Below, piece by piece: positions 6,609-21,591 of a stretch of 56,363 nt of DNA; the first letter of the stretch is position 1, and each line of letters opens with the position of its first letter. Source of the stretch: Chloroflexota bacterium (GTDB lineage: Bacteria > Chloroflexota > Anaerolineae > UBA4142); the NCBI GenBank assembly GCA_016219275.1, contig JACRBM010000015.1, positions 1 through 56,363 of the forward strand. The letters run 5' to 3'. Position numbers and translations under genes: made by a program. A model generated the notes under the pieces. That model was not told the DNA's origin. It saw only the letters and a list, made by a program, of their open reading frames with translations, and ran no database searches.

Positions 6609-6691
6609 TTACTCGCTCTGGGAATGGGCAAGCGTGTGATGCGTTTTCGCTGTGGAAGCGCATCACGCGTTTGATATTTTGCAAAGCCAGG

Positions 6692-6811
6692 GTACCTGCT
6701 CAACCTTGCGAAGGTTTGCAGGCACAATTCTCTTGGAAGCGAATTTGCTGTCGTCGCTCAATTCCTCAGAAAAGTGTCTAGTACCTTCGCAAGGATGGGC
6801 TGAGTAGATAC
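6692..6811. mobile_element. MITE-like element, copy 1, with 8-bp target duplication
   Basis: The 120-bp element has ends GTACCTGCTCAACC (6692-6705) and GGCTGAGTAGATAC (6798-6811), related inverted repeats with a few mismatches. The pairing extends inward through CCTTGCGAAGG (6704-6714) and CCTTCGCAAGG (6784-6794), which are exact complements. It is flanked by AAGCCAGG at 6684-6691 and 6812-6819, an exact 8-bp direct repeat. No ORF is present. The right duplication supplies the weak AGG ribosome site of the gene starting at 6823. Confidence 0.85.
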
Positions 6812-6822
6812 AAGCCAGGTCA

Positions 6823-21397: not shown

Positions 21398-21432
21398 CGC
21401 GGCGCATCCAGAATGATGCGCCGCGTTTTTTT
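21398..21432 (+). terminator. Strong intrinsic terminator
   Basis: CGCGGCGCATC (21398-21408) and GATGCGCCGCG (21415-21425) form a perfect 11-bp stem with a 6-nt loop, followed by seven T. Confidence 0.92.
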
Positions 21433-21441
21433 ATCTGCTTT

Positions 21442-21579
21442 GTAACTACTCAGCCATCGTTCCTTTATCCGCGAATTACGCGAATCTTCGCAATTTTTTT
21501 CTTCTTATTCGCGCAATTCGCGTTATTCGCGGATAAATTTGTTTTCATCGGCGTAAATGTGGGTTGGCTGAGTAGTTAC
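21442..21579. mobile_element. MITE-like element, copy 2, with 8-bp target duplication
   Basis: The 138-bp element has perfect 15-bp terminal inverted repeats, GTAACTACTCAGCCA (21442-21456) and TGGCTGAGTAGTTAC (21565-21579). TCTGCTTT occurs immediately on both sides (21434-21441, 21580-21587), an exact 8-bp target duplication. Inside, TTTATCCGCGAAT and ATTCGCGGATAAA form a second nested inverted repeat. It has no ORF, so it would need a transposase in trans. The ends match those of the element at 6692-6811. Confidence 0.92.
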
Positions 21580-21591
21580 TCTGCTTTGAAC

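Follow-up and report, generated by a model that had tools for sequence, protein, structure and literature searches.

A foldback repeat probably captured between IS66-type ends in a miniature element of a Chloroflexota bacterium

The element and its copies in the source genome

We analyzed a 56,363-nucleotide stretch (the window) of a Chloroflexota bacterium (assembly GCA_016219275.1, contig JACRBM010000015.1, positions 1 to 56,363), in which the 138-bp element at 21442-21579 is very probably a non-autonomous miniature inverted-repeat transposable element (MITE) of the ISBst12 group of IS66 insertion sequences (IS), which would be moved in trans and carries a captured palindrome. Its putative parent, left unnamed when the locus was first annotated from its letters (the original prediction), is an IS66/ISBst12-type element. 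The element is bounded by perfect 15-bp inverted ends, GTAACTACTCAGCCA on the left (21442-21456, plus strand) and its exact inverse TGGCTGAGTAGTTAC on the right (21565-21579, minus strand), and the 8-bp sequence TCTGCTTT stands on either side as an exact direct repeat, at 21434-21441 and 21580-21587. Direct reading bore out these ends and duplications, which the original prediction had reported for 21434-21587. When the whole window was scanned for inverted ends of at least 8 bp, lying within 40-400 bp and flanked by an exact 8-bp direct repeat, this was the sole site recovered, and 15-bp ends with a duplication appeared in none of 100 Markov shuffles of the window. Looser matches to the ends within the window were near chance level and were not used. 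The strand folds much more strongly than its shuffles (DNA fold z = -9.1), the element contains no gene, and Rfam gave no match at this locus.

Across the 6.16-Mb genome we counted 46 occurrences of the end motif, and the full element, which we call family A, was found at about 18 loci with 91-97% identity to the window copy. The genome is a draft assembly in which collapsed repeats hide autonomous copies, and many family A copies sit at the very ends of contigs, the assembler having failed to cross them. We restored insertion sites there by matching the outer flanks of pairs of contig ends. Seven sites were recovered in this way, six with exact 8-bp duplications (cctattcc, gaattttt, gccggcgg, aaaaaaac, cagaaaag and gatttcat) and one, tcgataa[t/c], with a duplication matching at 7/8 positions. 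Together with four internal loci, these constitute the 11 intact loci that were testable by virtue of both flanks being readable or paired, and all 11 show the duplication, nine exactly and two at 7/8. The copies and duplications sought genome-wide were thus both found, and they support the view, already put forward in the original prediction, that the family is a mobile MITE. Judging from the identical internal sequence common to 18 family A records, the composite of ends and interior has recently multiplied as a unit in the source genome. A genome from a different genus of the family (G005) has an A-type composite as well, 84% identical, whose left side agrees and whose right spacer differs; the composite is therefore probably older than this recent burst. 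In two family A copies, on contigs C56 and C99 (L024 and L039), the sequence TG[AG]CAATGTCAGAT interrupts one end at an identical position and may represent a further IS with the MITE end as its target; on C56 an IS66 end follows directly after the interruption.

The ends and their relationship to IS66

IS66 transposases are present in the source genome alongside the MITE. A complete IS66 gene on contig C66 encodes 458 amino acids, with ends GTAACTGCTCAC and duplications TAACTGCC, and a second, multicopy IS66 with ends GTAACTGCTCAGGC can be seen solely through its left and right ends, which lie at the edges of contigs (C9, C14, C17, C27, C28, C33, C37, C41, C44, C56, C89, C93, C94 and C98), its whole copies being missing from the draft. 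Six left/right pairs of these edge ends match by their 8-bp duplications. A complete relative, of 491 amino acids from its ATG, was found in a related genome (G006), which also harbors 22 MITE copies with ends matching its resident IS66. Both IS66 proteins tested match NCBIfam transpos_IS66 and Pfam DDE_Tnp_IS66, and a sequence comparison of the IS66 transposase with solved structures gave no match.

Single-ORF (open reading frame) IS66 elements of relatives (L107, L111, L146 and L157) bear GTWACTACTCAGCC-type ends, many with exact 8-bp duplications. The ends of L107 read GTTACTACTCAGCC, and the right end of L111, GTATCTACTCAGCCA, contains the stop codon of the transposase; the TGA of the right end serves as this stop codon in the L111 and L108 sequences. 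More widely, related single-ORF IS66 elements of Chloroflexota, Cyanobacteria and archaea repeatedly show GTAACTACTCAGCC-type ends flanked by exact 8-bp duplications. The left end of family A matches both these elements and ISDge4, a member of the ISBst12 group seen transposing in Deinococcus geothermalis, whose ends are GTGACTACTCAGCA/GTAACTGCTCAGCA and which is accompanied by a repeat of 8 bp (PMC12898284). Taken together, the ends and 8-bp duplications of the resident IS66, of those in relatives and of ISDge4 indicate that the ends of family A are of the IS66/ISBst12 type.

The same ends around other palindromes

A second element with this end type lies in the window at 6692-6811, and its 8-bp duplication AAGCCAGG was verified at 6684-6691 and 6812-6819. 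The original prediction had taken the two elements for copies of one MITE family. Their ends do match, but nothing else is common to them: the interior at 6692-6811 is a CCTTGCGAAGG palindrome belonging to a family that is older and has diverged, and it is unrelated to that of 21442-21579, so that we recognize two MITE families, A and B, with one end type. In the source genome at least three more loci (on C83, C88 and C94) enclose a TCATTTCGAG or TCATTTCGACC palindrome within such ends, which are in part degenerate, and the C83 element is flanked by the duplication ATCCGGGC. A further same-ended palindrome, at C40:258679, is without an 8-bp duplication. As to the setting of the family A copy, it stands upstream of a gene for a GntR-type regulator, and a terminator-like hairpin with a T-run (21398-21434, plus strand), outside the element, directly precedes the insertion.

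We applied the pattern GTNACTRCTCA-(56-115)-TGAGYAGTNAC to 298 genomes of the class, using the reversed pattern as the control. The pattern matched in 46 genomes, and the control was almost silent. Among 60 elements fetched with their flanks from the first listed places in each genome, 44 showed a duplication of at least 7/8 and 32 an exact one (8/8). The 82 interiors collected from the source genome and its relatives fell into about 20 similarity groups, and they fold far more strongly than their own flanks (median z -5.0 vs -0.25, p about 4e-27). Those of the TCATTGCGAG...GAAGCAATC type, which relatives carry between IS66 ends, may resemble the palindromic elements of Rickettsia. The genome G227 has 225 matches to the pattern of IS66-ended short elements in 3.4 Mb, with no IS66 gene listed.

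We also sampled, from one contig of G281, 20 TCATTKCGAG sites that lie outside the strict pattern. Degenerate IS66 end pairs were detected at 9/20 of these as against 2/390 control windows, and end pairs accompanied by a duplication at 6/20 as against 0/390. In this genome, many TCATTTCGAG palindromes that seem bare (L314-L333) are IS66-ended MITEs in decay, still bearing traces of the 8-bp duplication.

The unusual feature here is breadth, with one short end type around many different palindromes across a class. We tentatively propose, while considering it somewhat doubtful, that ISBst12-group IS66 transposases might be a common vehicle for many Chloroflexota palindromes (TCATTKCGAG, TCATTCCCGC, CCTTGCGAAGG and others), which would be interchangeable cargo lodging repeatedly between 12-base IS66 ends, with orphan palindromes often being their decayed remains. 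Among the papers covered by searches on IS66 with MITEs and on Chloroflexi MITEs, we found no account of palindromes between IS66 ends, and literature searches with the motif letters gave solely unrelated papers among the matches listed. The spread of short, dispersed palindromes that lack genes is often unexplained in bacteria, and about twenty of them are now linked to the end type of one defined group of transposases, which hints at how such scattered palindromes move. A vague question thereby becomes a testable one, namely which end bases suffice and whether a palindromic interior improves transposition.

Origin of the interior and alternative explanations

The interior of family A contains a foldback core, ATCCGCGAAT...ATTCGCGGAT, at approximately 21460-21540. 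Bare copies, which align to element positions 19-99 and lack the ends, occur about fifteen more times in the source genome and also in many relatives. Several of these lie within a second shell of about 120 bp, which has ends CAAYACCTTCGCCAA and duplications of 5-6 bp (for example TATGTG, TCAAGA, AATGA and GCATT); its carriers of the ATCCGCGAAT core (L348, L350, L353, L354, L050, L051 and L085) come from the source genome and one relative. The core is thus found inside both IS66-type ends and the CAAYACCTTCGCCAA shell, and has been carried by two unrelated transposon shells. The occurrence of the core without ends, its presence in the second shell and the enclosure of many other palindromes by the same ends support the interpretation that the interior is a dispersed foldback repeat captured between two IS66 ends, rather than a shrunken transposase gene. 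The original prediction had raised such a capture as a possibility, and these comparisons support it. Derivation of the interior by deletion from the parent IS, a trait usual in MITEs though not required of them, is not seen in family A.

The direction of this event could nevertheless be viewed otherwise, with the palindrome itself being mobile and having inserted into an IS66-type mini-element instead of being captured by it. The independent dispersal of the core, its residence in two shells and the many different palindromes that sit whole between IS66 ends are all compatible with this. We consider it unlikely, however, given that no insertion-typical duplication or boundary was identified at the borders of the core; no mobility enzyme for the core turned up either, though none was searched for.

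Alternatively, the palindrome could have been part of the MITE from the outset, its bare copies being old MITEs with decayed ends and nothing having been captured. Decay of this kind is true in part for TCATTKCGAG, as the degenerate ends at nine of the 20 G281 sites indicate. For the ATCCGCGAAT core, in contrast, none of the bare copies examined in the source genome or relatives has a convincing degenerate IS66 end pair. The copy L349 matches 9/12 bases at both ends, but its duplication agrees at only 2/8 positions and it sits inside the second shell. The notion that all bare ATCCGCGAAT cores are decayed MITEs was accordingly not supported, and the second shell, with its other ends and other duplication size, further speaks against it, making an original palindrome quite improbable for family A. 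We also weighed a snap-back event, in which template switching would have duplicated one end, and set it aside: in family A, the bases separating the end from the palindrome arm are not the same on the left and on the right.

Several observations weigh against an IS66 parentage of the MITE. The draft source genome yielded no autonomous IS66 whose two ends are exactly GTAACTACTCAGCC; the resident multicopy IS66 matches 12/14 end bases, with closer ends solely in relatives and other taxa, and homology between MITE and IS66 is confined to the terminal 15 bases or so. Across the class, IS66 genes and the MITEs are only modestly associated, strong IS66 hits occurring in 12/46 MITE genomes as against 30/252 others (odds ratio 2.6, p 0.014), and some MITE-rich genomes (G001, G082) lack an IS66 gene, which may have been lost in assembly. 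Duplications of 8 bp are not exclusive to IS66, and ISL3 appears as a much weaker secondary match of one resident IS66 protein. That the ends derive from another family with such duplications (e.g. ISL3 or IS256) and resemble IS66 by chance or convergence is nonetheless scarcely credible, given that many full IS66 elements, in several phyla and in the source genome, have identical ends of 12-14 bases together with 8-bp duplications; no transposase gene of another family was seen between GTAACTACTCAGCC ends and 8-bp duplications, although such families were not searched for.

Proposed mechanism

Under the preferred interpretation of a captured repeat, an IS66-family DDE transposase would recognize about 12-15 terminal bases, GTAACTRCTCAGSC, in trans and insert the element; the ends, the 8-bp target duplications and the many copies are seen in the sequence itself, the action in trans being inferred. 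The palindrome might have entered by landing inside a shrunken IS66 copy, or a deletion or recombination might have left IS66 ends flanking it. After capture, the composite would have been amplified as one unit. We speculate that the hairpin may hold the two ends close together.

Comparison with known systems

A close likeness is to ISDge4, whose terminal bases GTRACTRCTCAGCA compare with GTAACTACTCAGCCA of family A and which likewise generates an 8-bp duplication (PMC12898284). The presumed autonomous partners of family A also share a single-ORF transposase with the ISDge4/ISBst12 group. Family A differs from ISDge4 in lacking a transposase and in having an unrelated palindrome as its interior. 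The Rickettsia palindromic elements are likewise short dispersed palindromes, and the ATCCGCGAAT core of the window differs in sequence from the TCATTGCGAG...GAAGCAATC type. These elements are mentioned in a review of bacterial MITEs that does not mention IS66 (PMC10969869). REP/RAYT systems comprise GTAG/CGTC-tagged palindromes of 20-40 bp and a RAYT gene (PMC3733652, PMC2817692); family A is marked instead by long inverted ends and 8-bp duplications. With MITEAba12, family A has in common that it is a mobile, bacterial, IS-derived MITE (PMC6382973). Like bacterial MITEs in general, family A is short and non-coding, with terminal inverted repeats, target duplications, high copy number and a hairpin (PMC10969869). 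MITEs are, however, usually described as internally deleted IS copies (PMC10969869), whereas the interior of family A is independently dispersed and its end type spans about 20 interior families.
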